DNA from: Escallonia rubra
Taxonomy: Eukaryota > Streptophyta > Magnoliopsida > Escalloniales > Escalloniaceae
Direction of reading: 5' to 3'
NCBI GenBank assembly: GCA_033065855.1
Contig: JAVXUO010002708.1
Location: 62,001 to 126,000, forward strand
Length of the DNA stretch: 64,000 nucleotides
How positions within the stretch are numbered: the stretch's first letter is position 1; each line of letters opens with the position of its first letter. The notes beneath the pieces are model-generated. The model saw nothing but the letters and a program-made list of their open reading frames with translations. It was not told the DNA's origin and made no database searches. Shown here piece by piece: positions 7,977 through 64,000 of the stretch. The position numbers and the translations under genes were made by a program.

Positions 7977-9150
7977 TCAAAGAGCACATATCCAGCGGCA
8001 TTGGAGCATAATTAACTCGTACTCTTCAAGTCCTTTCTTTCCTCCATAGCTATTGAGTCCCCAATATGGAAGTGACCATAACACGCACTTTATCCTTCCT
8101 TAATACCTTCACCACATTAACACGCGGGGATACAAAGCTGATGTTAGCATGTAGTAAATTGAAAAGAAAACACAAGCATAGTAATGCAAAGTTCTGTTAT
8201 CGTCTTCAATAGTTGTACAATTGATCGTTTTTGTTGAAGTCTTTGCTCCTAGAAGAACGCTGGTGTAGACAAGCAGCAGCTCAAAAGGAAAATTTGAGCA
8301 AATTTCTTATTATCGCACTCGGGTTTCTTGGCTTGGGTCCACTAGCATATATTTCTGCCTTCTGCTTCATATATTTCCTGCGTACATTTAAGACAAAATA
8401 TAAAGTAAATATGACAATATATCTTATTGATAGTGCAATGTGCATATGCTAAAGAAGTATGGGCTTAATTTTTGAAAAGCTTGGAAGAAGGATCCCATTA
8501 GTATCTTGGTAACAGCTCTTACAATGTGCAGTGCAAAATTTCAAAGGGAAGAGCCTCAATGCTAAACTCCTTAAGTTGTCCATTGATGTTATTGTCTATG
8601 GCATTTGGATGGAGAGGAATGCTCGGAATTTTTAGCAAAAATAAGCTACCCCTTGTGCATGTGCAAGTGCTATACAACAGTGGGTTAAATATAAAGTATG
8701 CACCTGGAATAAAATTCCACCAACAGAGAGAAACCAGTCTCTATGCAATGCTTGGGGGGGATATACACTGGAATATTCAGAGAATTGTAAAGATAATGAG
8801 CTAAAATTACTGTTTTCCTATAAGACGGAGATAGATTGTTTTGTATAGGAAGGAAAATGATTGTTTTGTAAACCTTTTTTTTTGTTAGACCACCCAGTAT
8901 CCGGATGCCACATTGAGAGCCGACTAATCCGGGTTTGAGCCGGGCAGGACCACAGGGGCGGCAAAGTTCTCCCTACCAAGTTTTAACGCAGCTGCATTCT
9001 CAGGGCTCGAAATCGAGACCTATGGTTAAGTTAGGACAACCCCCTACCAGCTTACATACGCGCTTGGTGATGATTGTTTTGTAAAGATGTAAGAAGGCTA
9101 TGTACCTGTTTTATTGGAATAAGGGGACCCTTGACCAAAAAAAATATTTA
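7977..9150 (+). pseudogene. LINE-like relic, ORF2 C-terminal tail and 3' end (copy 1)
   Basis: From 7977 to about 8400 the sequence matches 36103-36530. Further on, 8543-8632 encodes a stretch containing KLSIDVIVYGIWMERNARNF, typical of the zf-RVT region at the end of plant LINE ORF2 (reverse transcriptase protein). A stop follows directly and the surrounding frames are broken. A SINE is inserted at 8873-9069. The relic fades into an A-rich stretch near 9140-9150, which may be the old LINE tail. Confidence 0.6.
8873..9069 (-). mobile_element. SINE with 16-bp target-site duplication
   Basis: A 197-bp insertion lies between two perfect copies of ATGATTGTTTTGTAAA (8857-8872 and 9070-9085). It begins with a T-run on the plus strand, which is the poly(A) tail of a minus-strand SINE. 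On the minus strand it carries a pol III B-box-like TTTCGAGCCC and an upstream A-box-like CTGGTAGGGGG. The long perfect duplication and terminal A-run are hallmarks of LINE-driven retroposition. Confidence 0.78.
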
Positions 9151-9424
9151 TTGATGAAAAGTTTAGTAATAAAATTGTCTAATTTTGCAGTGACCTCCGG
9201 CTCTGTTGACTTTGAGTAATTCCGAGCCACATTTGGTACGCTTAGCAGTGTTGCTAAAATACTTTTAGAAGTGCCACTGAAGTTGAATTATTTGTCGAGG
9301 GGTTGTAACGAGACTACGATAACCATGGTTGCGATAAATTTTTCCCATTTGGTTCTTTTAGTTGATTGAAAAGTTTGTGATAATTTTGATATTTCTTTAG
9401 CTGTGAGATCAGTACGTACAATAC

Positions 9425-9672
9425 CTTGAGAGCAATGGTCAAGTCACCGATCACAATCTCCACATATTCCTCTTGAAAATATGCATGAAAGAAGCTCCCG
9501 TAATCATTGCTTCCGATGCTAAATAAGTGAACAACATTAGATACGAGTGGCTTGCACCAAAAAAAATATATTAGATACGAGTGGCTAAGCTTGTTTTTCA
9601 CCTAGCTAGCCTCTGCATCAGTTCCTTCTTTACATTCTTGAAATACCTCAGCTGAGTATTCATGTTGATTAT
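9425..9672 (-). pseudogene. GDSL esterase/lipase relic, exon 3 (minus strand)
   Basis: Minus-strand reading gives INMNTQLRYFKNVKKELMQR followed after a break by LFSIGSNDYGSFFHAYFQEE and VEIVIGDLTIALK, then a GT donor. This is exon 3 of the GDSL family with the GSND block intact. A roughly 16-bp direct repeat (TTAGATACGAGTGGCT) interrupts it near 9536-9585, the reading frame is lost, and the 3' splice acceptor has no AG. Exon 2 of the same relic lies on the other side of the hAT element (13388-13505). Exons 1, 4 and 5 were not found nearby. Confidence 0.8.
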
Positions 9673-9964
9673 GTGTTTATATATATATATGTATATATGC
9701 AAAACCACTTAGGAAAATACATCTCGAGTTTTTCAGTTAAACGACGTAGAATAATGTCTGAAAGGAACAATAAAAAATTGAAGTTTCTCCAACAGTAAGT
9801 CTAGGTTAAACAACATTATTTACGTAAGCTTACTAGATCGCAATCAAAGATTGTGATCGAAATTTGTTATTTTAAAAAACTATCCAAGATTTGTCAAAAC
9901 GCACAACATTGAATTCTCTTCAGGGATTTCTAATGTGTTACCTAGTACCACGTATCATTCCCAG
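9673..9964. other. Intron 2 remnant of the minus-strand GDSL relic
   Basis: AT-rich sequence with a short TA microsatellite (9677-9698). No coding signal. It ends at the hAT target site ATTCCCAG (9957-9964), which corresponds to the exon 2 / intron 2 border of the relic. Confidence 0.5.
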
Positions 9965-10055
9965 CAGTGGCGGAGGCAGGATAATTATTCAAGGTGGGCA
10001 CAAGAGAAAAATTATGACAAAAATTAATTGTACATTAAACTCGAATCATAAAATT

Positions 10056-12593
10056 TTACAATTGACCATGACGAGGTCGCATCTTCTGAAAGCGATTAAT
10101 GATTACATCATTTTGAATATCATCAAACAATTTTTTTTCAACATAAGTAATCATACAATCATTCATAAACTCATCTCCGATTGAATTGCGCAATCGGGTC
10201 TTCACGATACTCATAGCGGAAAATGCCCTTTCCGCAGTTGCGGTAGCGACAGGCAAAATTAAAACCAAAGTTATAAGCTTGTAAACTAATGGATACAAAA
10301 TATTTTTCTTCTTTTCAACCATTTTCTCCGCAAGACCCGTGATACCTTTCACACTTGAGAACTCGTTGTTAGCACGTACATCCATGACGTAAGTATCAAG
10401 CTCATAGCCAAGTGTTAAGAGTTCCATACTTGAAAAATCGGCCGCATATAAATTGGCGAGCCGAATCAACTTTTTCTTGTCAAAAGCCAAGAAGGAATCA
10501 CTTGGACTAAGAGTTGCCATGCAAATGAGTAATTCAATGTTCCCTTCATTGAAACAATTATTCAACTCTTGAAGTTGCATATCAATGACGGTGTAAAACA
10601 ATTGCACTTGGTAATGGTGTTGGTTTGTAACTCCATGTGTGTGCCGCTTGGATCGAAAGATGGGTTCAAACTCCCCATCCATATTAGGAATGAAAATCTT
10701 GTGCTTGTTACAAATTGAACAAGCTTCATCAAAGAGGTCATCCCACCCATCTTCTCTCATCATTTGAAGTTGTAACTTTGACACTTTGACGAGATCCATG
10801 GCATTCACAATATCTTGATCTTTACGTTGTAATGCATGTGACAACGTATTGGTGATACCCAAGATATTTTTCATCAAAAAGAGAGATAATGCAAAATCAA
10901 AAGAGTGCATTGTCGCCAATAAATTTCTTGCTTCACGCTTTTGTTCCTAGCTTCCATCCCATGATATATCATCAAGTACATCACATGCAGCAGAAAAGAC
11001 AACAATCAAACTCACCAAAGCACCAAAATGCGAGCTCCAACGTGTATCACCCGCCCTTTTAAGCATAGTTTCTTGATTCAATCCTCGCCCACTTTGAAGT
11101 TCACCGGTAAGAAGTGCGTTCAATACATAAGTAGCTTGCTTTTCTTTAAGCAATATCACAACGTTTACAAGAAGCACAAACCAAGTTTACCACACTTGAA
11201 ACCGTGAAGAAAAGAGTTTCAACTAAGTCATGATTTGTTGCAACACCAACTAGTGCAAGTTGAAGTTGATGTGCAAAACAATGAACGTAATAGGCCGCCC
11301 CGTTCTCCTTTAAGATAAGTGCCTTTAAACCATTAAACTCATCTCACATGGTACTTGCTCCATCATAACCTTGCCCATGCAACCTTGCAATGCTTAGTTT
11401 GTGCTCACATAGCAAATCATCAATTTTCTTCTTTAGTGACACGGCTCTTGTATCACTAACATGCACAAGACCAATGAATTGTTCAACAACTTGGCCCTTG
11501 TCATTCACAAACCGGAAAACAACGGCCATTTGCTCCTTAGTTGATATATCACGAGATTCATCAATCAAGATAGAGAACAAGGAACTACCAAGCTCTTGCA
11601 TAATTACCAAGGTAGTTTCGGCGGCACAAACCCTTACAATATCCTTTTGAATATCCGGCGAAGTTAGCTTGTCATTTCGGGGAGCATTTTTCAACGCAAG
11701 TCTCTTGATAGCATCAGTGCTATTAGCAAGAGCCCTTAAGAGTTCAAGAAATTTTCCTCGATCATTAGATTCTTCCGATTCATCGTGACCTCAAAAAGCT
11801 AGTCCTTGCCGTAAGAGATACTTAATGCATACAAGTGATGCATTTAGACGCACCTGATACTCACTCCGATCACGATCGGATTTCTTGTGAAGGAAAGTTA
11901 TAACATATTGCTTTTCATTTAATAAAGCTTCACACTTTCTCCGAGCTTGGTTATGAAAGCTAGAACATCTTCCGACATGAATTCCAAACTTATCGCTTCT
12001 CTTCCAATTCTTGAATCCGTCAACAACAAATGAATAACCATTTTCTATTTCTTGCTCTTTCTTTGATTTAAAGAGATAGCAATAGAGGCAAAGACATGCA
12101 TCTTTTGCAACACTATATTCCAACCAAGTTGAGAATTCTTTGAACCAAGCCTTATTAAAGCGCCACTTTTTCTTTCCGATCATTGTTTGTGAAAATGTGT
12201 GCTTACGAGGTTGACAAGGACCCGCTAGTAGATACTCCCTACGAATGCGGTGTTAGTCATTGGGTGGTAGTCACATATTTGAATTCGCAACCCTGGATCT
12301 CGAATAATTTCATTTGTTGAGGAAGGAGTAACCATTTCCGAGATACTATGAGTAGAAGTAGAAACATCGCTAACTTCCAAAGCACTTAACTCCGATCGTT
12401 TCGGAGAGATGCTTGAATTAACCTCTGGCATATTTTCAATCGGATTTGCATCCGTTGGAATAGCTCCCATTCTAGAATTCTTCAAAGGAGGTTGCTCGTC
12501 AACATTTTCAATACTTTGATGATTCAATTGGAACATATGTGGAACATCTCTTTCTTTGAGACTCTCCCCAAGGCAGCCATTAACTAATAACAC
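10056..12593 (-). pseudogene. hAT transposase, TTF-type zinc finger / DUF4371 / hAT dimerisation type
   Basis: From N to C (right to left on the map): a poorly conserved head at 12593-12225; a TTF-type zinc finger region at 12183-11791 (KDACLCLYCYLFKSKKEQEI, NWKRSDKFGIHVG); the DUF4371 RNase H-like part at 11694-11344 (SILIDESRDISTKEQMAVVF, HGQGYDGASTM); a middle piece at 11177-10947 with RAGDTRWSSHFGAL; and the C-terminal hAT dimerisation domain at 10919-10056 (PVATATAERAFSAMSIVKTR). The zinc finger would bind the termini and the DDE core would cut and paste the element. The chain is interrupted by at least four frame breaks or stops between these blocks, so the copy is not expected to be active. 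Confidence 0.88.
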
Positions 12594-12976
12594 AATAACA
12601 AAAAGTCTTTCTATTACATTCCCAAGATTGCCAAGAACAAGAAGCCACTACGCACTACCCATTCTAGAATTCTTCAAAGGAGGTTGCCCGTTAACATTTT
12701 CAACACTTTGATGATTAACGGATGATTCAATTGGACCCGGATTCACTACCCTCGATCCCTTCAAGGATTTCAAGTAGTTCCGGGTCCAATTGAATCATCC
12801 GTTAATCATCAAAGTGTTGAAAATGTTAACGGGCAACCTCCTTTGAAGAATTCTAGAATGGGTAGTGCGTAGTGGCTTTTTGTTCTTCTTGGCAATCTTG
12901 GGAATGTAATAGAAAGACTTTTTTTTATTGTTTTATTAGTTAATGGCTGCCTTGGGGAGAGTCTCAAAGAAAGAGA
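12547..12976. repeat. Large near-perfect palindrome inside the hAT element
   Basis: The left arm (12547-12740) and right arm (12780-12976) are reverse complements over about 195 bp with only a few differences, separated by a 39-nt spacer. The arms contain the start region of the transposase gene. Part of the arm (from TCTAGAATTCTTCAAAGGAG) also occurs once more in direct orientation at 12472-12540. A transcript through this region could fold into a long hairpin. Confidence 0.88.
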
Positions 12977-13387
12977 ATGATCAAAAAGTCTTGAGCAACC
13001 GTAATGAACTTGGAAATGTGTGAGAGAGAGACTTTTTTATTGTTTAAATGGCATTGGGAAATAAAAACAAGCAACCATTATCTTTATCTATCTGTTTTAT
13101 CTCTTAACATTATTTATTTGGTGTTGGGTCTTTACACATTTGTGTGTAAATTTTACTTTAAAATTGACTAAAGAGATGGTTTTTATATTATTTTTTTAAT
13201 TTTGAATATTCTAACACATAAAATGATTAACAATATATCTCTTTAAATTATTTTTAAAATTTTTAGGTGGGCACTTTTATCATTGATGTCAAAATACACT
13301 ATGTAAAAAAAAATTCTCCTGGAATGGGGGGGGGCACACCCCCCCCCCCCCCCCCCACCCCCCGTCAGCTCCGTTTCTGATTCCCAG

Positions 13388-13505
13388 GCCATGTTTCATG
13401 TGAAGCACCGGGTGCAGCAGAAGGAAAGTTTGTCCCAAAAATAAAAAAATTGATGATTGCCGGGCTGAAGACATGGAGGAATCAACGGCAGCTTTGCATA
13501 CTCAG
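13388..13505 (-). pseudogene. GDSL esterase/lipase relic, exon 2 (minus strand)
   Basis: Minus-strand reading after the acceptor TGTGCAG gives AEYAKLPLIPPCLQPGNHQF, the conserved start of GDSL exon 2. The second half is frame-shifted (the region corresponding to NFASAGAGAL is garbled). It ends at the hAT target site. With exon 3 at 9425-9672 it forms one relic gene in opposite orientation to the other GDSL copies of the window. Confidence 0.82.
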
Positions 13506-14054
13506 CTGCACAAAAAGTTAGAAGCCCCAATAATTTTTGTTCTTCCAATAAAACTAATTGGCCATGTGAGATGACCAAATTAATTCGCCTTTTTAGCTAC
13601 GCAACTCACCAGAATTCCATTTGCCTATTACAAGTATTCTGTAATCACAGCATTGAGTCGATACGTTGTTGTCAATGTTAGTTGTCACTTGCATAATATA
13701 CAAATTTAGATGCATATGCATGTATGTGCAACCATAAGTTTTTTATAATAGTGTTATTTTTTATTTTATTTTTTTGGTTTCGGTAAAATGTCCTTTTATT
13801 CCATGAAGCTCATATACACATTAAACCAATACAAGTTGAAAACTACCCACAAACTCCTACCGATTGCATTAAATATTAACGCACTCCAATTTTTAACAAA
13901 TAAACTACCCAGAATCTCCTACGGATTGCATTACATGATATATCTTGGACAAGAAGTCAATAGCGTGCTGCAATTTAGTCATCTTTGGATTTAATAACTC
14001 TAGCAGTTTTTGAACATGTCCAACCTCCTCTCGTCCTCCACCAGGTACTGTTCC
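13506..14054. other. 5' flank of gene A
   Basis: AT-rich. The part from about 13700 to 13900 resembles 60250-60430 upstream of gene E (TCCATGAAG ... AATACAAGTTGAAAA), so the two flanks share ancestry. From about 13945 (AGTCAATAGCGTGCTG) to the ATG the sequence matches the proximal promoters of genes C, D and E. The W-box block seen upstream of C, D and E is missing here. Confidence 0.6.
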
Positions 14055-14109: not shown

Positions 14110-15544
14110 ATGGCAACTTCAGATCTTCACTTCTTTGCGTTAGTAGTACTTGCAATCTCAGCTACCAGCTGCCTGGGCCGTGAACATGGGCACGATGGTA
14201 AACGTGTCCCTCTTTTCATATTTGGCGATTCCCTCTTTGATGCTGGGAATAATAATTACATCAACACCGTTGCCCGAGCAAATTTCTGGCCATATGGGGA
14301 GACGTTCTTCAAGTACCCAACTGGAAGATTCTGTGATGGTCGCCTCATCCCTGATTTTATTGGTAAGAGAGAGTGGCAATACCCTTTTCTGGTGATTTCT
14401 AACTGTGCTTCAAGATGTTGTACATCACAATTGGGAAAAGGAAGCAAAAACCGTGTAATGAATTTGTGTACGTTTCTCAATTCTCATCAATTTATGTACT
14501 TTTAATTTTGGCAAGAGCTTTAACAGCTTTGGCAATAGACAACACCTTTAAAAACTTTAGTTATATATTGTGTCGAGGACATTTATGTAGTCACAAAAGT
14601 AAAGACGTCACTAATGAAGTGAGCTTAATAATTGCGACTTACGAGAGTTAAAAGTCCATCGAGAGAAACAATATCTATCACTTCCAATGTATAAGCCTCT
14701 TGGGTTGCTTCACTCATTTTCTATTTTATTTTGAGTCAAGGATATCAATAGTATCATAACCAATTGACTTGTACATTTATATCCATGTAATAAAATGCAA
14801 AAATTTTGGCCGTAGCCTTGGTTGTAACAAGAAGTTACGACTCTCCTGTATATCGTTAACTAATGATCACAAAATATGGCAAGTAGCAACAGGAATGCCG
14901 TGCAATGCATTGAAGTCTGGCACTAACACTCAGTGGGAGCATTGGGTAATTTTTGTTTTAAACAATCACTGATTGATGCTTGGTGAATTTGTTGCAGCTG
15001 AATATGCAGAGCTGCCATTGATTCCACCATACCTTCAGCCTGGAAATTATCAGTTTGGTTATGGGGCAAACTTCGCTTCTGCTGGAGCTGGTGCACTGGA
15101 TGAAACTCATCCAGGACGGGTGTGTGATGTTTTAGTACGTTACTTCGTTTATAAAAACGGGTGTACTTGGCTTCTTACTTATTCAACTTCTTAAGGGCCC
15201 TGGTTAATTTATACAAACATTCCAAAACACAATGAAACAAAACATGCCCGAGAACTATTCTAGTTTTGCATTATCCTTTTTGATGGCATGATTGTCTCCA
15301 TTGTAATAGGTGATCAACCTCAATACACAGCTGACCTATTTCAAAGATGTAGAGAAGCAGTTGATGCAGAAACTAGGTGATGAGGAAGCCACGAAACTTC
15401 TGTCTGAAGCTGTCTACTTATTTAGCATCGGAAGCAATGATTATGGGAGCCTGGTGAACTACAGCGGCTCTCAAGATGAATATGTGGAGATGGTGATTGG
15501 AAACATGACAGTTGTGATCAAGGTACGGCATTGATCTCCCGCAC

Positions 15545-15580
<36 letters not shown>

Positions 15581-17063
15581 TTTTAAGAGGATTGCAAATC
15601 AAATCGAATAGAATATTTTTTTTTCTTTTTCTTTCGTAGTCCGGTTTGCGACAAAGTTACTGCAGTTGGCAGACACGGACTATAATTTATGCTCATTCTT
15701 TTTCTGCTTTGGCTCGAAAGCAAGAAGCCAGGGATGATCTTATCTTCCTATAGAAAGGAGCATTCAACAGTGTTATAATTCTTACTGCCATAGTGACTGA
15801 ATTTTAACAAATGTTTTTTATGCTCTGCAGGAAGTATATAGACAAGGAGGGAGAAATTTTGGGATTCTTGGCGTGGCTGCAGTGGGTTGTGTACCAGCTA
15901 TTAGGAATGCTAGTGGTTATTGCATGGAAGAGCTGGCAACCCTAGTAAAACTGCACAATGAAGCTCTTCATAAGATCCTCCATAAGCTAGAGAGGCAATT
16001 AGAGGGGTTTACCTATTCCTATTTTGATTTCTACACTGTGTCACTGGATATAATCGACAACCCTTTCAAATACGGTACCTTGCTTTCTCTTCTCTTTAGA
16101 CGATATTATTATAGCAAAATAACTTTTCACAAAAATGTGCATATTTTATAGGGATGGCAAGATGGAGTGCCCCACCTCACTTCATTTCATTTAGATCAAA
16201 CCCATCATATTTATACTGATTTAATACGGGTCGACCCGTTAGTTTCTAACTCCTTATGTTATAAATTGGTGATATTTTTTTAAGGATTTTTTCATTCCAA
16301 CTGGCATAGGCGGTGGCCACGGCTGTCAGAGTTGGTAGGCAGTGATGGGTGATGGGCAGCGGTGGTGGCTGTTGGAGTTGGGTGGCAGCCAATGTCACTG
16401 TTCGGCAGAGGCAATGGCTACTTGAATTGGCTGGTTGCGAGACGACAACGCCTGATGCTTCCAAAGTTGGTCGCCCGCAGACTGTTGTGATTAGTGATCA
16501 GAGGTAGTGGTGGCTGCCGGAGTTTAGTGGTGGTCGGCGCGGTGGTCAGTGGCTGGCGCTTGCAAGCTTGTATGTGTCTGGGAGGGAAAGGAAAAAGAAA
16601 CATGTATATTGGTTCAATATTTGAAAATCTAGTTAGGTAAAAATAGAGATGGAAAAAAACTCAAATAGCCACAATTAATTAGATCGCCATTTGCCCCAAA
16701 TCCAATTAGAGCTTCTGCAAATAAGTGCCTCATGGGGTGGACTCCAATTAGGCTCCCAAATAACCATACCTAATTTTATGATATTAGTGTTAACTATATT
16801 GTCTGAAATACTGTTAATGTTATGAAGGTTTGAAGGAAGGGAAGAATGCATGTTGCGGCTCGGGTCCGTATCGGGGAATTGATAGTTGCGGAGGAAAGAG
16901 AGGAATTACAGAGTACAAGTTGTGTACTAATGCAAGTGAGTATGTGTTCTTTGACTCCAGTCATCCAACTGAGGCAGCCAATGATCAAATTGCCAAACTC
17001 ATTTGGAGTGGAAATAGGACTATTGCATGGCCATATAATTTGAAGAAACTATTCAAAGCTTAA
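14110..17063 (+). CDS. Gene A: secreted GDSL-type esterase/lipase, five exons, 355 aa
   Basis: A serine ester hydrolase of the plant SGNH family, probably extracellular; substrate unknown. Exons: 14110-14362, 14998-15119, 15310-15522, 15831-16074, 16828-17063. All introns are GT-AG and the phases join cleanly. Residues 1-23 (MATSDLHFFALVVLAISATS...) look like a signal peptide. Block I is FIFGDSLFDAGNNN with nucleophile Ser41; block II NFASAGAG with Gly114; block III SIGSNDYG with Asn168; block V DSSHP with Asp320 and His323. Cys-rich ACCGSGPYRG and a WSGNRT glycosylation-type site lie near the C terminus. Length is normal for the family. The ATG at 14110 is preferred because all paralogues start with MATSD; an out-of-frame ATG lies at 14102. 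Two further exon 3-5 cassettes follow downstream. Confidence 0.9.
15544..15580. repeat. (AT)n microsatellite in intron 3 of gene A
   Basis: About 37 bp of TA repeats. The matching tract is about 57 bp in cassette 2 (18824-18880) and only about 9 bp in cassette 3 (22113-22121), so this is the fastest-changing part of the tandem unit. Confidence 0.85.
16149..16771. mobile_element. MITE in intron 4 of gene A
   Basis: About 620 bp starting TAGGGATGGCAAGATGG and ending in the roughly inverted CCATACCTA. Gene D has only an 82-bp intron 4 without this block, so it is an insertion. Copies sit at the same place in cassettes 2 and 3, in gene C (31998-32672) and in gene E (from 63554). ATTTTAT-like sequence flanks both ends (7 of 8 bp). 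Terminal form and duplication size suggest a hAT-type MITE. The inside is GC-rich and GGTGGC-repetitive; its open frames are not genes. Confidence 0.65.
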
Positions 17064-17168
17064 AGAAGAGTGGATCTTATGGTCCTAACACCCTTTAGGA
17101 ATATACTTCCATCATATGCCAGTCACTTGTCCCCTGTAAACTTAAATAAGGCATATCATAATAATTAT

Positions 17169-17174
17169 AATAAA
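17169..17174 (+). terminator. Putative poly(A) signal of gene A
   Basis: AATAAA 106 bp after the stop codon, in an AT-rich stretch. The same hexamer is kept in cassette 2 (20460-20465) and cassette 3 (about 23917-23922). Confidence 0.45.
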
Positions 17175-17697
17175 TTGCAACATGCATTTCGTTTATTGTT
17201 TTTTGGCATCTTTCATGTAGAGTAAGACTATAACTGCTGAATGCACAAACAAGTTACTATGTGTAACCCGTTGATTCAAAAAGTAACCATGAGTAAGAAA
17301 ATGTACAAGTCACATGCCATTACATGAGTGAAAAATTTTATGCAAAAAAGCTAGTGTCAAAACGCATTTTCGAAAGGAAAAAAATTTGCTGCACACCAAA
17401 AAGCAAGCTCATCTTGCTGTCCTTCCACGTGGCACCGTCTTATTGGTCCAGCAAACTGGCCATCATGCTCCTTGCACGTGATCTAGCTATATTGAATTAA
17501 CGGATTATCACCGTTAAACCTATTCCTTAACAAACTGGCCATCATGCTGCTTGCATGTAATCTAGCTGGAGAGAATTAACGGATTATCGCCGTTAAACCC
17601 AATCCAGAAATTGGGGTCTCTCTCTCTCCGTTCCCATTTTCTTCCTCCCCATTCGAGAAACTGCTATCTTCTTCGTCCCACCGTCAACACTCCATAC

Positions 17698-18348
17698 TAG
17701 GGATGAGCACCAAACCGTGTAAACCGATCCAAACCGCTTAAACCGATCAAATCAAACCAGTCTAATCCGAATCGTCCAAAAATCTTAACTGTTCGGTTTT
17801 CACATTTTTCAAACCGACATTGGTTTAGTTCGGTTCGATTTGCGGTTCACATTTTTTAAACTGATTCCAAACCGAATTGGAATCGACCTATGATATGTTA
17901 ATCTATTTTTAGTAACCTTCATTGATAATTTTACATATATAGTATTAAAAAAATTCAAATAGACAAATCTTGAGTGTTGAAAGAAAAGAAAATAATGAGA
18001 ATACTTATGACGCAAAGTTTTCAAGACCAATATCTATTGTATACTTACTCATTCTTTCTCATACATCAATGAGCAATTATATATCAATTGTAACAAGATT
18101 ATATGCAATTTAGGAAAAATATAACTTCAATTTTTAATTATTATTAGATCTAATAGTAGTGTGTAAAGGAACAACGTCTTTAAGTAAACACAAGCCGTTT
18201 AAACCTATCAAACCGAACCGTCTAAACGAGCAAACTGAACCGTCCAAACCGGTAGTGTTTGGTTTGGTTCGGTTCACAATTTTTAAAACTGAAGGGGTAA
18301 CGGTTCGGTTTGCGGTTTGACGCTAAAACCGAACCGTGCTCACCCTTA
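17698..18348. mobile_element. hAT-like MITE with AACCG subterminal repeats, copy 1
   Basis: 651 bp with inverted ends TAGGGATGAGCAC and GTGCTCACCCTTA. Near-matching 8-bp flanks are CTCCATAC (17690-17697) and CTCCACAT (18349-18356). Dense copies of AAACCG and its complement CGGTTT lie at both ends, with an AT-rich middle. No coding capacity. Because it lies inside the tandem unit it recurs at 20989-21639 and 24446-25096 with the same flanks, so it was present before the tandem duplication. Confidence 0.78.
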
Positions 18349-18820
18349 CTCCACATTTCATCTGTTATCTCTGGTTTCAACAAATTCACATGGACGTGGA
18401 GACATATTGATCATGATTGATGGGAATTCACTCGCACATGACCTTAGTCTACCATGTCCATGCCGTGCCATCAACTTTGACATGATGATCACACAACACA
18501 TGAAAATCATGTTTCATCTTTTCTTGTCTTTTCAATCTGGATTTTGAAGTTTCTGGTTTTGATGGCATGATTGTCTCCATTGTAATAGGTGATCAACCTC
18601 AATACACAGCTGACCTATTTCAAAGATGTAGAGAAGCAGTTGATGCAGAAACTAGGTGATGAGGAAGCCACGAAACTTCTGTCTGAAGTTGTCTACTTAT
18701 TTAGCATCGGAAGCAATGATTATGGGAGCCTGGTGAACTACAGCGGCTCTCAAGATGAATATGTGGAGATGGTGATTGGAAACATGACAGTTGTGATCAA
18801 GGTACGGCATTGATCTCCCG

Positions 18821-18823
<3 letters not shown>

Positions 18824-18880
<57 letters not shown>
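18824..18880. repeat. (AT)n microsatellite in cassette 2
   Basis: About 57 bp of perfect TA repeats in intron 3, longer than in the sister cassettes. Confidence 0.9.
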
Positions 18881-18882
<2 letters not shown>

Positions 18883-19439
18883 AGGATTGCAAATGAAATC
18901 AAATAGAATTTTTGTTTTTTTTTCTTTCGTAGTCCGGTTTGCGACAAAGTTACTGCAATTGGCAGACAGGGACTATAATTTATGCTCATTCTTTTTCTGC
19001 TTTGGCTTGAAAGCAAGAAGCCAGGGATGATCTTATCTTCCTATAGAAAGGAGCATTCAACAGTTATAATTCTTACTGCCGTAGTGACTGAATTTTAACA
19101 AATGTTTTCTATGCTCTGCAGGAAATATATAGACAAGGAGGAAGAAATTTTAGGATTCTTGGCGTGGCTGCAGTGGGTTGTGTACCAGCTATTAGGAATG
19201 CTAGTGGTTATTGCATGGAAGAGCTGGCAACCCTAGTAAAACTGCACAATGAAGCTCTTCATAAGATCCTCCATAAGCTAGAGAGGCAATTAGAGGGGTT
19301 TACCTATTCCTATTTTGATTTCTACACTGTGTCACTGGATATAATCGACAACCCCTTCAAATACGGTACCTTGCTTTCTCTTCTCTTTAGACGATATTAT
19401 TATAGCAAAATAACTTTTCACAAAAATGTGCATATTTTA

Positions 19440-20062
19440 TACGGATGGCAATATGGAATTCCTCACCTCACTTCATTTCATTTAGATCAAACCCATCATA
19501 TTTATACTGATTTAATACGGGTCGACCCGTTAGTTTCTAACTCCTTATGTTATAAATTGGTGATATTTTTTTAAGGATTTTTTCATTCCAACTGGCATAG
19601 GCGGTGGCCACGGCTGTCAGAGTTGGTAGGCAGTGATGGGTGATGGGCAGCGGTGGTGGCTGTTGGAGTTGGGTGGCAGCCAATGTCACTGTTCGGCAGA
19701 GGCAATGGCTACTTGAATTGGCCGGTTGCTAGACGACAACGCCTGATGCTTCCAAAGTTGATCGCCCGCAGACTGTTGTGATTAGTGATCAGAGGTAGTG
19801 GTGGCTGCCGGAGTTTAGTGGTGGTCGGCGCGGTGGTCAGTGGCTGGCACTTGCAAGCTTGTATGTGTCTGGGAGGCAAAGGAAAAAGAAACATGTATAT
19901 TGGTTCAATATTTGAAAATCTAGTTAGGTAAAAATAGAGATGGAAAAAAACTCAAATAGCCACAATTAATTAGATCGCCATTTGCCCCAAATCCAATTAG
20001 AGCTTCTGCAAATAAGTGCCTCATGGGGTGGACTCCAATTAGGCTCCCAAATAACCATACCT
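19440..20062. mobile_element. Intron 4 MITE, copy in cassette 2
   Basis: Same element and position as 16149-16771, carried along by the tandem duplication; the first GGG of the left end is changed to CGG. Confidence 0.65.
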
Positions 20063-20988
20063 AATTTTATGATATTAGTGTTAACTATATTGTCTGAAAT
20101 ACTGTTAATGTTATGAAGGTTTGAAGGAAGGGAATAATGCATGTTGCGGCTCGGGTCCGTATCGGGGAATTGATAGTTGCGGAGGAAAGAGAGGAATTAC
20201 AGAGTACAAGTTGTGTACTAATGCAAGTGAGTATGTGTTCTTTGACTCCAGTCATCCAACTGAGGCAGCCAATGATCAAATTGCCAAACTCATTTGGAGT
20301 GGAAATAGGACTATTGCATGGCCATATAATTTGAAGAAACTATTCAAAGCTTAAAGAAGAGTGGATCTTATGGTCCTAACACCCTTTAGGAATATACTTC
20401 CATCATATGCCAGTCACTTGTCCCCTGTAAACTTAAATAAGGCATATCATAATAATTATAATAAATTGCAACATGCATTTCGTTTATTGTTTTTTGGCAT
20501 CTTTCATGTAGAGTAAGACTATAACTGCTGAATGCACAAACAAGTTACTATGTGTAACCCGTTGATTCAAAAAGTAACCATGAGTAAGAAAATGTACAAG
20601 TCACATGCCATTACATGAGTGAAAAATTTTATGCAAAAAAGCTAGTGTCAAAACGCATTTTCGAAAGGAAAAAAATTTGCTGCACACCAAAAAGCAAGCT
20701 CATCTTGCTGTCCTTCCACGTGGCACCGTCTTATTGGTCCAGCAAACTGGCCATCATGCTCCTTGCACGTGATGTAGCTATATTGGATTAACGGATTATC
20801 ACCGTTAAACCTATTCCTCAGCAAATTGGCCATCATCCTCCTTGCATGTAATCTAGCTGGAGAGAATTAACGGATTATCGCCGTTAAACCCAATCCAGAA
20901 ATTGGGGTCTCTCTCTCTCCGTTCCCATTTTCTTCCTCCCCATTCGAGAAACTGCTATCTTCTTCGTCCCACCGTCAACACTCCATAC

Positions 20989-21639
20989 TAGGGATGAGCA
21001 CCAAACCGTGTAAACCGATCCAAACCGCTTAAACCGATCAAATCAAACCAGTCTAATCCGAATCGTCCAAAAATCTTAACTGTTCGGTTTTCACATTTTT
21101 CAAACCAACCTTGGTTTAGTTCGGTTTGATTTGCGGTTCACATTTTTTAAACTGATTCCAAACCGAATTGGAATCGACCTATGATATGTTAATCTATTTT
21201 TAATAACCTTCATTGATAATTTTACATATATAGTATTAAAAAAATTCAAATAGACAAATCTTGAGTGTTGAAAGAAAAGAAAATAATGAGAATACTTATG
21301 ACGCAAAGTTTTCAAGACCAATATCTATTGTATACTTACTCATTCTTTCTCATACATCAATGAGCAATTATATATCAATTGTAACAAGATTATATGCAAT
21401 TTAGGAAAAATATAACTTCAATTTTTAATTATTATTAGATCTAATAGTAGTGTGTAAAGGAACAACGTCTTTAAGTAAACACAAGCCGTTTAAACCTATC
21501 AAACCGAACCGTCTAAACGAGCAAACTGAACCGTCCAAACCGGTAGTGTTTGGTTTGGTTCGGTTCACAATTTTTAAAACTGAAGGGGTAACGGTTCGGT
21601 TTGCGGTTTGACCCTCAAACCGAACCGTGCTCACCCTTA
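20989..21639. mobile_element. hAT-like MITE with AACCG subterminal repeats, copy 2
   Basis: Same element as 17698-18348, duplicated as part of unit 2, with the same 8-bp flanks. Confidence 0.78.
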
Positions 21640-22402
21640 CTCCACATTTCATCTGTTATCTCTGGTTTCAACAAATTCACATGGACGTGGAGACATATTG
21701 ATCATGATTGATGGGAATTCACTCGCACATGACCTTAGTCTACCATGTCCATGCCGTGCCATCAACTTTGACATGATGATCACACAACACATGAAAATCA
21801 TGTTTCATCTTTTCTTGTCTTTTCAATCTGGATTTTGAATTTCTGGTTTTGATGGCATGATTGTCTCCATTGTAATAGGTGATCAACCTCAATACACAGC
21901 TGACCTATTTCAAAGATGTAGAGAAGCAGTTGATGCAGAAACTAGGTGATGAGGAAGCCACGAAACTTCTGTCTGAAGCTGTCTACTTATTTAGCATCGG
22001 AAGCAATGATTATGGGAGCCTGGTGAACTACAGCGGCTCTCAAGATGAATATGTGGAGATGGTGATTGGAAACATGACAGTTGTGATCAAGGTACGGCAT
22101 TGATCTCCCGCACATATATATTTTTTTAAGAGGATTGCAAATCAAATCGAATAGAATATTTTTTTTTTCTTTTTCTTTCGTAGTCCGGTTTGCGACAAAG
22201 TTACTGCAGTTGGCAGACACGGACTATAATTTATGCTCATTCTTTTTCTGCTTTGGCTCGAAAGCAAGAAGCCAGGGATGATCTTATCTTCCTATAGAAA
22301 GGAGCATTCAACAGTGTTATAATTCTTACTGCCATAGTGACTGAATTTTAACAAATGTTTTTTATGCTCTGCAGGAAGTATATAGACAAAGAGGGAGAAA
22401 CT

Positions 22403-22626
22403 AGGGTAGACACTAGGCTTCGCAGATAGAGCCTAACAAGTGACAATGCTACGAGGGCGAAACCAGGGGGTGAATACACAACGAAAATCACAGTCCAATG
22501 CCTAACACCAAATTTAAGGTCCAGCATTAGGGTCTGTATGTTTCTTTCTCTAGGATTCTTTAGCTCTGGAATCAGAGCGAGAAAATGAAATGTGATATTT
22601 GAGGGAAGAGTGCGTAGCATTTGGCT
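22403..22626. repeat. 224-bp patch inserted in cassette 3 exon 4
   Basis: Appears identical to 27287-27510, which lies about 4.9 kb downstream outside the tandem array. There is no target-site duplication, no terminal repeats, and about 20 bp of exon are lost at the junction. The left junction shares AGGG; the right one shares GGCT with the exon. This looks like templated repair filler rather than transposition. Confidence 0.9.
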
Positions 22627-22896
22627 GCAGTGGGTTGTGTACCAGCTATTAGGAATGCTAGTGGTTATTGCATGGAAGAGCTGGCAACCCTAGTAAAACT
22701 GCACAATGAAGCTCTTCATAAGATCCTCCATAAGCTAGAGAGGCAATTAGAGGGGTTTACCTATTCCTATTTTGATTTCTACACTGTGTCACTGGATATA
22801 ATCGACAACCCTTTCAAATACGGTACCTTGCTTTCTCTTCTCTTTAGACGATATTATTATAGCAAAATAACTTTTCACAAAAATGTGCATATTTTA

Positions 22897-23519
22897 TAGG
22901 GATGGCAAGATGGAGTGCCCCACCTCACTTCATTTCATTTAGATCAAACCCATCATATTTATACTGATTTAATACGGGTCGACCCGTTAGTTTCTAACTC
23001 CTTATGTTATAAATTGGTGATATTTTTTTAAGGATTTTTTCATTCCAACTGGCATAGGCGGTGGCCACGGCTGTCAGAGTTGGTAGGCAGTGATGGGTGA
23101 TGGGCAGCGGTGGTGGCTGTTGGAGTTGGGTGGCAGCCAATGTCACTGTTCGGCAGAGGCAATGGCTACTTGAATTGGCTGGTTGCGAGACGACAACGCC
23201 TGATGCTTCCAAAGTTGATCGCCCGCAGACTGTTGTGATTAGTGATCAGAGGTAGTGGTGGCTGCCGGAGTTTAGTGGTGGTCGGCGCGGTGGTCAGTGG
23301 CTGGCGCTTGCAAGCTTGTATGTGTCTGGGAGGGAAAGGAAAAAGAAACATGTATATTGGTTCAATATTTGAAAATCTAGTTAGGTAAAAATAGAGATGG
23401 AAAAAAACTCAAATAGCCACAATTAATTAGATCGCCATTTGCCCCAAATCCAATTAGAGCTTCTGCAAATAAGTGCCTCATGGGGTGGACTCCAATTAGG
23501 CTCCCAAATAACCATACCT
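22897..23519. mobile_element. Intron 4 MITE, copy in cassette 3
   Basis: Same element as 16149-16771, carried by the tandem duplication. Confidence 0.65.
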
Positions 23520-24445
23520 AATTTTATGATATTAGTGTTAACTATATTGTCTGAAATACTGTTAATGTTATGAAGGTTTGAAGGAAGGGAAGAATGCATG
23601 TTGCGGCTCGGGTCCGTATCGGGGAATTGATAGTTGCGGAGGAAAGAGAGGAATTACAGAGTACAAGTTGTGTACTAATGCAAGTGAGTATGTGTTCTTT
23701 GACTCCAGTCATCCAACTGAGGCAGCCAATGATCAAATTGCCAAACTCATTTGGAGTGGAAATAGGACTATTGCATGGCCATATAATTTGAAGAAACTAT
23801 TCAAAGCTTAAAGAAGAGTGGATCTTATGGTCCTAACACCCTTTAGGAATATACTTCCATCATATGCCAGTCACTTGTCCCCTGTAAACTTAAATAAGGC
23901 ATATCATAATAATTATAATAAATTGCAACATGCATTTCGTTTATTGTTTTTTGGCATCTTTCATGTAGAGTAAGACTATAACTGCTGAATGCACAAACAA
24001 GTTACTATGTGTAACCCGTTGATTCAAAAAGTAACCATGAGTAAGAAAATGTACAAGTCACATGCCATTACATGAGTGAAAAATTTTATGCAAAAAAGCT
24101 AGTGTCAAAACGCATTTTCGAAAGGAAAAAAATTTGCTGCACACCAAAAAGCAAGCTCATCTTGCTGTCCTTCCACGTGGCACCGTCTTATTGGTCCAGC
24201 AAACTGGCCATCATGCTCCTTGCACGTGATCTAGCTATATTGAATTAACGGATTATCACCGTTAAACCTATTCCTTAACAAACTGGCCATCATGCTGCTT
24301 GCATGTAATCTAGCTGGAGAGAATTAACGGATTATCGCCGTTAAACCCAATCCAGAAATTGGGGTCTCTCTCTCTCCGTTCCCATTTTCTTCCTCCCCAT
24401 TCGAGAAACTGCTATCTTCTTCGTCCCACCGTCAACACTCCATAC

Positions 24446-25096
24446 TAGGGATGAGCACCAAACCGTGTAAACCGATCCAAACCGCTTAAACCGATCAAAT
24501 CAAACCAGTCTAATCCGAATCGTCCAAAAATCTTAACTGTTCGGTTTTCACAATTTTCTAACCGACATTGGTTTAGTTCGGTTCGATTTGCGGTTCACAT
24601 TTTTTAAACTGATTCCAAACCGAATTGGAATCGACCTATGATATGTTAATCTATTTTTAGTAACCTTCATTGATAATTTTACATATATAGTATTAAAAAA
24701 ATTCAAATAGACAAATCTTGAGTGTTGAAAGAAAAGAAAATAATGAGAATACTTATGACGCAAAGTTTTCAAGACCAATATCTATTGTATACTTACTCAT
24801 TCTTTCTCATACATCAATGAGCAATTATATATCAATTGTAACAAGATTATATGCAATTTAGGAAAAATATAACTTCAATTTTTAATTATTATTAGATCTA
24901 ATAGTAGTGTGTAAAGGAACAACGTCTTTAAGTAAACACAAGCCGTTTAAACCTATCAAACCGAACCGTCTAAACGAGCAAACTGAACCGTCCAAACCGG
25001 TAGTGTTTGGTTTGGTTCGGTTCACAATTTTTAAAACTGAAGGGGTAACGGTTCGGTTTGCGGTTTGACCCTCAAACCGAACCGTGCTCACCCTTA
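24446..25096. mobile_element. hAT-like MITE with AACCG subterminal repeats, copy 3
   Basis: Same element as 17698-18348, in unit 3, with the same 8-bp flanks. Confidence 0.78.
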
Positions 25097-25305
25097 CTCC
25101 ACATTTCATCTGTTATCTCTGGTTTCAACAAATTCACATGGACGTGGAGACATATTGATCATGATTGATGGGAATTCACTCGCACATGACCTTAGTCTAC
25201 CATGTCCATGCCGTGCCATCAACTTTGACATGATGATCACACAACACATGAAAATCATGTTTCATCTTTTCTTGTCTTTTCAATCTGGATTTTGAAGTTT
25301 CTGGT

Positions 25306-27286
25306 ATTGACTGTTTAAAGCCTCGCGTTTCAAATTGTGGGTGCAAACATTTTTAGCAAATCTAAACATCATATTACTGTTGGGGCATTAATCATGAAGT
25401 GAAAGTCAGATTCTCTCTGACGTCTCTCAACTATCTTCAGGAAGCTTTGATGATACTAATAGCAAAGGTGATAGGCTTACCGAGCTGCTTTCCTCAACCT
25501 ATTCATGGTAGAGTGTATCAGATGCATTTAATTTTGAGAAAAATCAAGCAACAGGAAACTTCATGATTCTTAGGGAGTGCGGTTAGGTTCCAGCAGTTTT
25601 ATAAAGCTTCTAGCCTCTTTTGATGCTCCCACTTCCTTCATCTATTTTCTTTTGGATACAATACAAATAGTTCCGCTGCCTACTCATTTCCCCCTTGAGA
25701 AAATGCAATTTGAATCTTGAGTAATCATGCATTTGATTCAAAAATTAAAGAGAAGTTCAGGTGGACATTATTATATGCCATTTGAATAATAAACCAAAAC
25801 TACATCATATTGGTACTATCTGGCAAGATAGCTCTCAAGAGCCCAGAAATAACAGATGGAGTGTGGATGGTGAGCCGAAAAAGATGGGAAGGAAGAGAGA
25901 GAGAGAGCCAAAATTTCGGGATGTGTTTAATAGTGACAGTATGTTCTCCAGCTAAATCACATGCTAGGAGCATGATGGCTGGTTTGCTAGACCAATAAGA
26001 CGGTGCCACATGGAGGGTAGTAGGATGAGCTTGCTTCTTGGTTTGTAGCAAAAAATTTCCTTTTCAAAATCAAACCTTCACAAGCCTTTCAAGAGGCTTC
26101 CTGCTATGCTTTTCGTGATGACTGATACATAGGCCCTCATATTCATATTAAGAACTTAGTGAGCACCAACATAGCCCTCTAAAAGGTTTCTTATTTACTC
26201 TCACTGTGAGCCAACATCAGTAAGCCCTCTGTGACGCTCTCCATAAACATTCAATTGGAAGCCCTCCGAGAGGCTTCTTACAACACTATCCATGATCATC
26301 CATGTACAAGCTCTGGGAAGCTTTCTATTATCCTCAATTCAAACACCAATATACTAACCGTTAGTAGAGAAGGGGAGACCTTAATGACGTTGATAGAGAA
26401 GAGCTGGTGGTGGGGAACAGCTCTTTGGGGTGTGGTTTGGACTGGGGTAGTGCTGCCATAGGTGTTGTTTGCTATGTTGGGGTTGGGTTTCATCTAAATA
26501 GAGTTATGCATCCCCGAGTAAAATTAAGCAAAGGTAAGGCACGCCTGGTAGTGGCGAGGGGTTGTTGCTGCAGCAGTTAGCCAAGGTCGACTTAAGGTCT
26601 CCGAGTGATGGTGGATGTGACCAACACGCCTACCGCCAAGGGCAGAGTTACTGCCAGTTCTACCACCGAGGTCTTGAAGGACCAAGGCACCGGTGGTCGC
26701 AAGACTAGGACCTAGGTAGTGTCGAGAACTAGCCCAGGCCCTGAAGGTTAGATTTGAGCATGAGGGTCCAACGCCAGAGCTNGGGATGGCACGGGGTGAG
26801 CAATAGGCACAGTGTGGGGACCTTTGAGGCCTTGAGAGACGAGCAAATGCAAAGTTAAGGCTTCGGTTGAGTTTTTCATCTCCAAGATCGCCGTCATGAG
26901 AGGTTGTAGGGAGTCTTGAGGTCGATGATGTTGGAAGCGAGGCACTGGACTGTGGCATTGACGCTGGTGACAGCATTGGGTGTGTCTATCCCGTGGGGAG
27001 CCTGGAGTCAGTCGTCACTTGTCTCTTCATGGTCCTTAGGATGATACTCTTCTTGGATTGATGGGTTGAGGCGTTGGCTTGTAATCGTGGTAGTCTTGCA
27101 TTGCTTTGGCATGGTGGGTTGGGTGTGTCAGACAAGAGACAAAATATATTGTGATACTCACCTACCCAGTTGGGTCTCCAAAATGATACCGAGAAAGTGG
27201 TTCGCATTATTTATGGAGTTACCATAGAGGAAACAATCCCATTTAAGGTCAAGTATGCTGACCTGGAATGGAGCAGGTACAGAACA
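25306..27286. other. Spacer with old repeats, no recognised gene
   Basis: 25880-26060 is an inverted, diverged copy of the gene A 3' flank segment around 17390-17630 (shared GGCACCGTCTTATTGGTC and the CT-rich end). 26070-26340 matches 55905-56190 downstream of gene D, both with recurring GAGAGGCTTCTT phrases. 26520-27220 is GC-richer and includes one N at 26782. Its open frames show no recognisable domain. Confidence 0.55.
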
Positions 27287-27510
27287 AGGGTAGACACTAG
27301 GCTTCGCAGATAGAGCCTAACAAGTGACAATGCTACGAGGGCGAAACCAGGGGGTGAATACACAACGAAAATCACAGTCCAATGCCTAACACCAAATTTA
27401 AGGTCCAGCATTAGGGTCTGTATGTTTCTTTCTCTAGGATTCTTTAGCTCTGGAATCAGAGCGAGAAAATGAAATGTGATATTTGAGGGAAGAGTGCGTA
27501 GCATTTGGCT
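27287..27510. repeat. Apparent source copy of the 224-bp patch
   Basis: Identical in my reading to 22403-22626. Here it is continuous with flanking sequence on both sides (ACAAGGG... and ...GGCTTGGGC), so this is the likelier donor. It does not resemble a known element. Confidence 0.8.
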
Positions 27511-30215: not shown

Positions 30216-32810
30216 ATGGCAACTTCGGATCTTCACTTCTTTGCCTTAGTAGTGCTTGCACTCTCAGCTACCGGCTGCCTGGGCCTCGAACACCAGCACG
30301 GTGGCAAACATGTCCCGCGTTTTGTATTTGGCAATTCGCTCTTTGATGCCGGAAATAACAATTACATCAACAGCAGCGCTGTTGCCCGAGCAAATTTCTG
30401 GCCATATGGGGAGACGCTCTTCAAGTACCCAACTGGAAGATTCTCTGATGGTCGGCTCATCCCTGATTTTATTGGTAAGAGACGTGGCAATATCCGTTTC
30501 TGATGATTTATAACTGTGCTTCAAGATGTTGTACATCACGATTGGCAGAAGGGAGCAAAACCGTGTACTTTGTGTACATTTCTCATCGCAAGAACTTTAA
30601 TAGCTTTGGCAATAGGCAACCCTTCGCAATTAAAAATTTTGGTTTTGTATTGTGCAGAGGACATTTATGTGGTTGCAAACATAAATACCTCATTAGCGAA
30701 GTGATAGACCTCAGGGAAACCATATATATCTAACACTTCAACGTATAGGCCTCTAGGGTTGCTTCACTCACTTTTATAATTTATTTTGAGTCAAGGATAT
30801 CATGAGTCGACTTGTACGTTTATACCCGTGTAGTTAAAAAGAAAAAGTTTTGGCCACGAATCGGGTTGTGGCAAGAAGTTATAACTCCCGAGTACAGCGA
30901 CAATGTCATGACCACAAAAAATGGTTAGTGGCATCAATAATGGTAATTTAGGTTTTAACCAATTATTTGGTGATGCGTAGTGAATTTGTTGCAGCTGAGT
31001 ACGCAAAGCTGCCATTGATTCCACCATACCTTCAGCCTGGAAATCATCAGTTTGGTTACGGCTTAAACTTCCCTGCTGGTGGAGCTGGTGCATTGAATGA
31101 AACTTATCCAGGAGTGGTATGTGATGTTTTAATACAGTATATTCCTTTGTTCCTGTAAAAGGATCCATAGGGTTCATTATTCATTCATCTTCTCAAGGTG
31201 ATCAACCTTGAGAAGTTGAGTTTTGCAAATATATCTTCTTTGGTGGCATGATGGCCTTCATTGTAATAGGTGATCAACCTCAATACACAGCTGACCTATT
31301 TCAAAGATGTAGAGAAGTAGTTGGTGCATAAACTAGGTGATGAGGAAGCTACGCAACTTCTGTTTAAAGCTGTCTTCTTAGTTAACATCGGAACCAATGA
31401 CTATGGGAGCCTGGTTAACTACAGTGGCTCTCACGACGAATATGTGGAGATGGTGATCAGAAACTTGACAGCTGTGATCAAGGTAGGGCATTGATCTCAC
31501 AAACAAATGTTCTGATAACAAAATAATTAGTTGTTCTTCAAATATTGGTCTCTGGTTGGCAACAAAATTACTGCACTTGTCATACATGGGAATATGAAAG
31601 TATGAATATAACGGATCAACATTACTGCCATAGTGATTAGGGACTCTGTATATCAACTAATATTTTTAATGCTCTCCAGGAAATATATAAACAAGGAGGG
31701 AGAAATTTTTGTGTTTTTGGCTTGGCTGCATTGGGTTGTATACCAGCTTTCAGGAATGCTAGGGGTCATTGCAAGGAAGACCTGATAAACCTAGTAAAGC
31801 TGCACAATGAAGCTCTTCGTAATTTCTTCCATAAGCTAGAGAGGCAATTAAAGGGATTTACCTATTCCTATTTTGATTTCTACACTCTATCACTAGATTT
31901 AATCGACAACCCCTCCAAATATGGTACATTTCTTTCTCATCTCTTAAGACAATATTTATAGAAGAAAATAACTTTTTGCAGATTGGGGCATATATTACAG
32001 GGATGGCAATATGGGATGCCCTGTCCCAACCCAAGTCGCCCTATCCTTATCTTGTCCTATCTTTGTTTTAGTATGTCCTGCATCATTTCATCTAGATCAA
32101 ACTTGTCTTATTTATCCTGATTTAATATGGGCCAACCCTTTACTTTCTAACTCCTTTTGCTTTAAACTAGTCAAAATTTTCAATATTTTATTTTATTCTA
32201 GTTAGCGTAGGCAGTGGCTGAAGGTGGCTGACGGAGTTAGACAGAGGTAATGCGATGGCCGGCGGCGGTGGCTACTGGATTTGGCTGGCATTCAGTGCCC
32301 GCGTTTGGCAAAGATAGTGGCTACCGAAATTGACCGGCATCGAGAGGACAACACCTAATGCTTCTAGAGTTGGCCGACGGGAGACTGCTGTAATCCACAG
32401 TCTTGCGATATCGGTGGCTGCTAGAGTTTGGCGATGGTCATTGATAGGCTTGTGTGTGGGAGGCAAAAAATAAAAACATGTATATGGTTAAATTGCTGAA
32501 AATCTACTTGGGGCAGATTAGAGATAGAAAAAAATTCAAATAGCCACAATTTAGTAGATTTCCATTTTCCCTATTCCCATTTGTTCCAGATCCAATTATA
32601 GCTTCCCCAAATAAGTAACTTACGGGGTGGGGCCGAGTAGGATCCAATTAGGCCTCCAAATTTTCATCTCTGATATTATACAGTAGTCGAAACAACTGCT
32701 CTAATAATGTTATTTACCTCTCAACAATGATACTCGTGTTAACTTTATTGTCTAAAAAATGTTACGAAGGTTTCAAGGAAGGGAAAAGTGCATGTTGCGG
32801 ATCAGGTCCA
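30216..32810 (+). pseudogene. Gene C: GDSL esterase/lipase pseudogene, exons 1-4 and start of exon 5
   Basis: Exons 30216-30474, 30995-31116, 31270-31482, 31680-31923 and the first 41 bp of exon 5 from 32770. An ATG at 30210 adds Met-Asn, but paralogues start at MATSD. The GDS motif is changed to GNS (FVFGNSLFDAGNNN); the Ser remains. Exon 3 has an in-frame stop (CAG to TAG after DVEK) and the block III motif is NIGTND instead of SIGSND. Exon 5 breaks off at 32810, and its remainder lies at 39369-39570. The TATA box found in A and E is missing. Clearly non-functional as a lipase. Confidence 0.9.
31998..32672. mobile_element. Intron 4 MITE in gene C
   Basis: 675 bp from CAGGGATGGCAATATGGG to the inverted TTTTCATCTCTG, flanked by similar TA-rich octamers. 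More diverged from the gene A copies than those are from each other, so the insertion predates the split of genes A, C and E. Confidence 0.65.
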
Positions 32811-39368: not shown

Positions 39369-39570
39369 GGGTCCATATCGGGGGATCAATAGTTGCGGAG
39401 GAAAGAGAGGAATTGCAGAGTACGAGTTGTGTGCTAATGCAAGTGAGTACATGAATTTTGACTCCGATCATCCCACTGAGGCAGCCAATTATCAATTTGC
39501 CAAGCTCATTTGGAGTGGAAATAGGACTATTGCATGGCCATATAATTTGAAGAAACTATTCAAAGCTTAA
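39369..39570 (+). pseudogene. Gene C exon 5, detached 3' part
   Basis: Encodes GPYRGINSCGGKRGIAEYEL, the block V DSDHPTEAAN and the family C terminus with its stop (KKLFKA). Normal exon 5 sequence would join this directly to 32810. Both sides carry a version of GGTCCA.AT.GGG, so the junctions overlap by a few bases. Confidence 0.9.
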
Positions 39571-63466: not shown

Positions 63467-63553
63467 GTACCTTGCTTTCTCTTCTCTTTAGGCGATGTTT
63501 TTATAGCAAATTTTTATAGCAAAATAACTTTTCGTAAAAACGTGCATATTTTA

Positions 63554-64000
63554 TAGGGATGGCAATATGGAGTGCCCCACCTCGATTCATTTCATTTAGA
63601 TCAAACCCATCATATTTATATTGATTTAATACGGGTCAATTCGTTGGTTTCTAACTCCTTATGTTTTAAACTGGTGACATTTTTTTAAGGATCTTTTCAT
63701 TCCAGTTGGCATAGGCGGTGGCCATGGCTGTCAGAGTTGGTAGGCAGTGATGGGTGATGGGCAGCGGTGGTGGCTACTGGAGTTGGGTGGCAGCCAATGC
63801 CACTGTTCGGCATAGGCAATGGCTACTGAAATTGGCCAGTGGCGAGACAACAACGCCTGATGCTTCCAAAGTTGGTCGCCCGCAGACTGTTGTGATTAGA
63901 GGTAGCGGTGGCTGCCAAAGTTTAGTGGTTGTCAGCGCGGTGGTCAGTGGCTGATGCTTGCAAGCTTGTATGTGTGTGGGAGGGAAAGGAAAAAAAACAT
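63554..64000. mobile_element. Intron 4 MITE of gene E, cut by window end
   Basis: TAGGGATGGCAATATGG and the same GGTGGC-rich interior as in gene A (16149-16771), running off the end of the window. Confidence 0.65.

Follow-up and report, generated by a model that had tools for sequence, protein, structure and literature searches.

Three tandem copies of the terminal exons behind a single head in a GDSL lipase gene of Escallonia rubra: a probable young partial tandem duplication

How does a GDSL lipase gene come to have one beginning and three ends, and does it make use of them? The question is raised by gene A, which lies in a 64,000-nucleotide stretch of the Escallonia rubra genome (C2411:62001-126000, C2411 being contig JAVXUO010002708.1; this whole stretch is the window, and coordinates refer to it unless a contig is named) in an assembly of one genome of 566 Mb in 3222 contigs. 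Exons 1 and 2 of gene A, its head, are present once, and exons 3 to 5, its tail, are present three times as cassettes 1 to 3. We consider it likely that the array arose by a recent partial tandem duplication in a GDSL cluster that changes rapidly, with cassettes 2 and 3 as headless copies left to decay.

The catalytic motifs of GDSL lipases are a GDS nucleophile, a GxND block and a DxxH block. Gene A (14110-17063) is a five-exon gene of this kind whose splice borders are standard and whose frame stays open for 355 residues, and the Pfam profile Lipase_GDSL (PF00657) covers its protein from end to end (E 6.9e-33, profile 1-208 of 208). One product holds all three blocks, namely FGDSLFD in exon 1, which we take to be the site of the catalytic serine, GSND in exon 3 and DSSHP in exon 5. 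A TATA-like box (TATATAA) can be read about 55 bases 5' of the start codon. The exons, delimited by open reading frame and splice sites, are:

14110-14362, plus strand: gene A exon 1, with start codon, hydrophobic N-terminus (a putative signal peptide, judged by eye) and GDSL block
14998-15119, plus strand: gene A exon 2
15310-15522, plus strand: cassette 1 exon 3, with the GSND block
15831-16074, plus strand: cassette 1 exon 4
16828-17063, plus strand: cassette 1 exon 5, with stop and DSSHP block

The repeated block of 3.3 kb comprises the last 32 nucleotides of intron 2, exons 3 to 5 and about 1.5 kb past the stop, in three copies head to tail:

15278-18556, plus strand: unit 1 (cassette 1), with the end of intron 2, exons 3-5 and 1.5 kb of 3' flank
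18557-21846, plus strand: unit 2 (cassette 2)
21847-25304 (end approximate), plus strand: unit 3 (cassette 3)
17699-18346, plus strand: element inside the unit resembling a miniature inverted-repeat transposable element, with inverted ends AGGGATGAGCAC and GTGCTCACCCT and TACT on both sides (ends read from the sequence)

In a DNA search the head of gene A, exons 1-2 with their introns, gave a single match at 100%, and paralogues matched it at up to 85% over long stretches and at no more than 90% over short ones. The single head and the threefold tail described in the initial annotation are therefore borne out by the matches and the unit mapping; its unit starts at 15281, 18560 and 21850 are each moved slightly, to 15278, 18557 and 21847. 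Three near-identical copies of 3.3 kb exclude chance. The transposon-like element is more widely distributed: from 1594 candidate matches 40 were scored, and 37 of these lie at places beyond the array.

Homology of the partial copies ends at a breakpoint inside gene A, at 15278 in intron 2, so that incomplete copies adjoin a single source gene, as in a partial tandem duplicate. Both internal unit borders read CTGGT followed by TTTGATGG, with one base assignable to either side, and the flanks 5' of 15278 and 3' of 25304 are unlike them; such borders fit an illegitimate join at the outset and homologous exchange thereafter. A break within intron 2 may thus have been sealed onto gene A's 3' flank at a microhomology of about 1 bp, which would have produced a second block of exons 3 to 5, and exchange between blocks would then have given three.

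An array of this kind might also be written by an assembler, as one unit entered three times or as two haplotypes placed in line, and the same cluster does hold an unmerged contig overlap: the contig ends C2410:550130-563886 and C2411:1-13749 share 13.77 kb at 99.2% (80 mismatches, 13 gaps). These are probably unmerged haplotypes, which means that haplotype handling is probably imperfect and suggests that both haplotypes are held in places, so the copy number of the array is provisional. An artefact is nevertheless most improbable, since the units are not identical (unit 2 stands apart at 40 sites and unit 3 has an insert), the junction is a new non-homologous join that alleles set side by side could not produce, and the array itself is free of N; a single N, at 26782, occurs in the 156 kb of C2411 that were read.

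The two additional cassettes are in different states. They consist of:

18589-18801, plus strand: cassette 2 exon 3 (open reading frame and splice sites)
19122-19365, plus strand: cassette 2 exon 4 (open reading frame and splice sites)
20119-20354, plus strand: cassette 2 exon 5, with stop (open reading frame and splice sites)
21879-22091, plus strand: cassette 3 exon 3 (exon-wise similarity)
22399-22626, plus strand: insert of 228 bp in cassette 3 exon 4, replacing about 17 bp
23576-23811, plus strand: cassette 3 exon 5 (exon-wise similarity)
27283-27510, plus strand: identical counterpart of the insert, lying 4.9 kb downstream

Cassette 2 is open, with AG/GT at every junction and both GSND and DSSHP, and differs from cassette 1 at exactly four residues (A159V, V198I, G207R, K283N) that leave the catalytic motifs unchanged, in agreement with the initial annotation, which had called both cassettes open, with intact splice sites and motifs and about four residues apart. 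Splice sites and frame are intact in these two, and cassette 3 fails: its exon 4 reads through the insert as EVYRQRGRN and then stops, after nine codons. Besides its identical counterpart, the insert is matched next best in the genome at 88% (40 matches scored of 874 candidates), and five shared bases can be read at its right border. It looks like the product of break repair with copied filler DNA, and resembles the filler DNA copied at breaks that is discussed for plant pseudogenes in PMC7935947; cassette 3 would have gained it during such a repair. Neither cassette 2 nor cassette 3 has its own start, signal sequence or catalytic serine, and cassette 2 alone matches PF00657 only over profile 60-208, the profile start being missing. 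The gene A enzyme would be made from exons 1-2 and cassette 1, and cassettes 2 and 3, as decaying by-products of duplication, would yield no enzyme.

A parallel case, locus Z, was found in an exon-by-exon tblastn search with gene A (E up to 1e-3). The search covered 156 kb from the start of C2411, 54 kb at the end of C2410 and, on C1176 and C3029, a single stretch of 10 kb each. The locus is laid out as follows:

61270-64000, on to about 64591 beyond the window, plus strand: locus Z, with exons 1-2, broken exons 3-4 and a second tail of exons 3-5

Locus Z is the only other locus found in the cluster with a head and an additional tail, and both of its tails are broken. The first (exons 3-4) has two stops and one frameshift; the second, in which exon 5 contains a stop, starts at 62685, which corresponds to base 15278 of the array. 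The headless tails found are thus cassettes 2 and 3 of gene A and the second tail of Z, of which two of three are broken and one is open.

With this in hand, the proposal of the initial annotation can be weighed, namely that transcription continuing beyond the first poly(A) site would allow exon 2 to be spliced to cassette 2, one promoter then yielding two enzyme versions. The permissive part of it stands. Unit 2 keeps the intron 2 acceptor with its 32 nucleotides before exon 3, which are identical in all three units, the frame from exon 2 into cassette 2 exon 3 is correct, and splice sites and motifs are intact. Comparable events are also described elsewhere. In its account of rearranged gene pairs in Arabidopsis, PMC6545605 reports read-through and intergenic splicing where the second member is a duplicated or translocated paralogue or a pseudogene, an arrangement like that of gene A, and in the enzyme family itself alternative first exons are reported for OG-GELP-C4a (PMC9602515). 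The Arabidopsis events, however, are restrained by a polyadenylation pathway assisted by N6-methyladenosine, and the chimeric RNAs were shown in mutants, where that pathway is missing; in OG-GELP-C4a the alternative part is the first exon, whereas the copied part here is the 3' end. By analogy, occasional read-through RNA from gene A into cassette 2 would be plausible. A functional switch is very unlikely: the acceptor of cassette 1 is closer and equal in sequence, an intron into cassette 2 would span 3.5 kb and a poly(A) region, all four residue changes lie outside the motifs, constraint on cassette 2 is not significant in a test of low power, and cassette 3 is broken, as are both tails of Z. 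The alternative that the initial annotation had itself offered, decapitated copies that decay, is the better fit.

Several observations weigh against reading the copies as simply decaying, the first being that cassette 2 has kept its reading frame and every splice site intact. Over the 3224 sites aligned in all three units, with the insert of unit 3 left out, 47 differ, unit 2 being odd at 40, unit 3 at 4 and unit 1 at 3, so that units 1 and 3 are 7 differences apart and units 1 and 2 are 43 apart. Polarised by outgroups, for which as many as five paralogous stretches served, the 40 sites divide into 21 derived in unit 2, 4 derived in units 1 and 3, 10 mixed and 5 undecidable. Four of the 40 (18549-18554) look misaligned at a one-base gap and were dropped from the tests of rate and clustering. 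Outside the exons, derived changes fall 19 to 4 on unit 2 against units 1 and 3 (binomial p=0.0026, with 15 others dropped), and the unit 2 changes are clustered, with 20 neighbouring gaps of 25 bases or less against 8.6 expected (36 sites; 0 of 5000 draws). Decay at an even rate gives no account of changes that are clustered and biased to unit 2; conversion from an unsampled sequence is possible. Between units 1 and 2, exons have nominally changed less than non-coding sequence (6/694 v 34/2554, or 0.9% v 1.3%), a difference that is not significant (Fisher p=0.44) in a test with almost no power, so few exon changes neither showing nor excluding constraint. Likewise, the ratio of nonsynonymous to synonymous change (dN/dS) between these units, 0.54 on six changes, is not far from the 0.29-0.45 of whole open paralogues.

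The near identity of units 1 and 3, with unit 2 lying between them, would also suit a donor store in which silent cassettes 2 and 3 feed cassette 1 by gene conversion, and tails in this cluster have recombined with other heads, as set out below. The direction of exchange, however, is not readable from one genome, and the likeness of units 1 and 3 may equally come from recent duplication or haplotype exchange. We regard such a store as unlikely.

The five-exon GDSL sets found by tblastn in that cluster are as follows, the four checked as open being A, P, G8 and G114:

C2411: 8188 (G8), 18838 (P), 35565 (Q), 76110 (A), 114237 (G114) and 137282
C2410: 520324, 524585 and 558325, the last in the contig overlap and equivalent to G8
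C1176: 749323 and 752357

Within this one genome, the complete open paralogues P and G8 indicate that the complete form is older than the headless form. The separate histories of heads and tails were unexpected. A and P are separated by a synonymous distance of 0.208 in their heads (exons 1-2) and of 0.035 in their tails (exons 3-5), the corresponding values for P and G8 being 0.086 and 0.207; sliding identity places the change-over in P near the start of exon 2. In a tree of heads (10 rows, the Z row only 46% filled) P groups with Q, G8 and the Z head (100/100), and in a tree of tails (13 rows) P and the second tail of Z group with the A units (100/100). The opposing groupings were rejected: in the head tree A with P (approximately unbiased test, p 5e-5) and A with P and Z (2e-7), and in the tail tree P with G8, Q and the first tail of Z (9e-26), also when the second tail of Z was added (3e-5), all of these p values being optimistic because the groups were picked after the distances had been seen. 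The conflict places A-type tails behind three heads (A, P and Z), to which genomic recombination has joined them. P (C2411:18838-21844, upstream of the window) is an open recombinant GDSL gene with a head of G8/Q type and a tail of A type. The dN/dS of the A-P tails, 1.14 (21 nonsynonymous and 5 synonymous changes) against 0.34 for A-G8, is suggestive only. It may be speculated that the tail of exons 3 to 5 is a movable module, the array serving through conversion and rare read-through splicing as a standing supply of tails, so that the head (signal and serine) and the tail (asparagine, histidine and substrate-facing parts) evolve apart; we hold this to be doubtful, with a small chance of being right.

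The rest of the cluster holds these genes:

52237-54935: G114, an open five-exon GDSL gene
30216-31923: G92, a GDSL gene interrupted by a stop in exon 3, close to which exon 5 is matched only weakly and in part (32769)

A lone piece resembling exon 5 (86%) stands at 39370-39567, 7.4 kb beyond G92. Just upstream of gene A, on the minus strand (8013-13506), are pieces resembling GDSL exons 5, 3 and 2, probably a decayed gene facing the opposite way. In exon 2 of the gene at C2411:137282, GGC TAA, a likely stop, replaces the GGG GCA of gene A. In Q, exon 1 carries a 7-base frameshift, and intron 2 contains an insertion bounded by the 9-base word TATCTCCTT as well as a second exon 2. The Q insertion (C2411:36714-38865), the array junction (15278) and the Z junction (62685) are three intron 2 lesions that share one position to within about 10 bases, a T tract preceding GATGG, either by coincidence or at a fragile site.

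Among known systems, the closest in kind are the partial tandem duplicates and tandem-derived pseudogenes treated in PMC3449122 and PMC7935947, which are likewise incomplete adjacent copies of one source gene with 3' flank; gene A differs in that a single open head is followed by three tandem copies, of which two keep every splice site, and in the head and tail exchange of its cluster. In several animals a large proportion of young duplicates are partial copies (PMC3449122). The GDSL esterase/lipase (GELP) family as described in PMC9602515 shares with gene A the enzyme, the five-exon structure and tandem expansion. In plants, HvARM1, a partial duplicate of HvPUB15, shows that partial gene copies can gain function; according to PMC6092874 it dates to the common ancestor of a tribe, whereas the gene A copies are young. 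The array looks like a partial tandem duplicate arising in ordinary gene-cluster turnover.

We contend that gene A shows partial gene duplication cleanly and at an early stage, since its cluster brings together the parent, one copy that is open, one that is broken and a parallel case that has decayed, and that the locus lets one test whether tandem headless copies splice to the upstream head before they decay. Given the conflict between heads and tails among these paralogues, gene trees built from whole proteins of the GDSL family can mislead.
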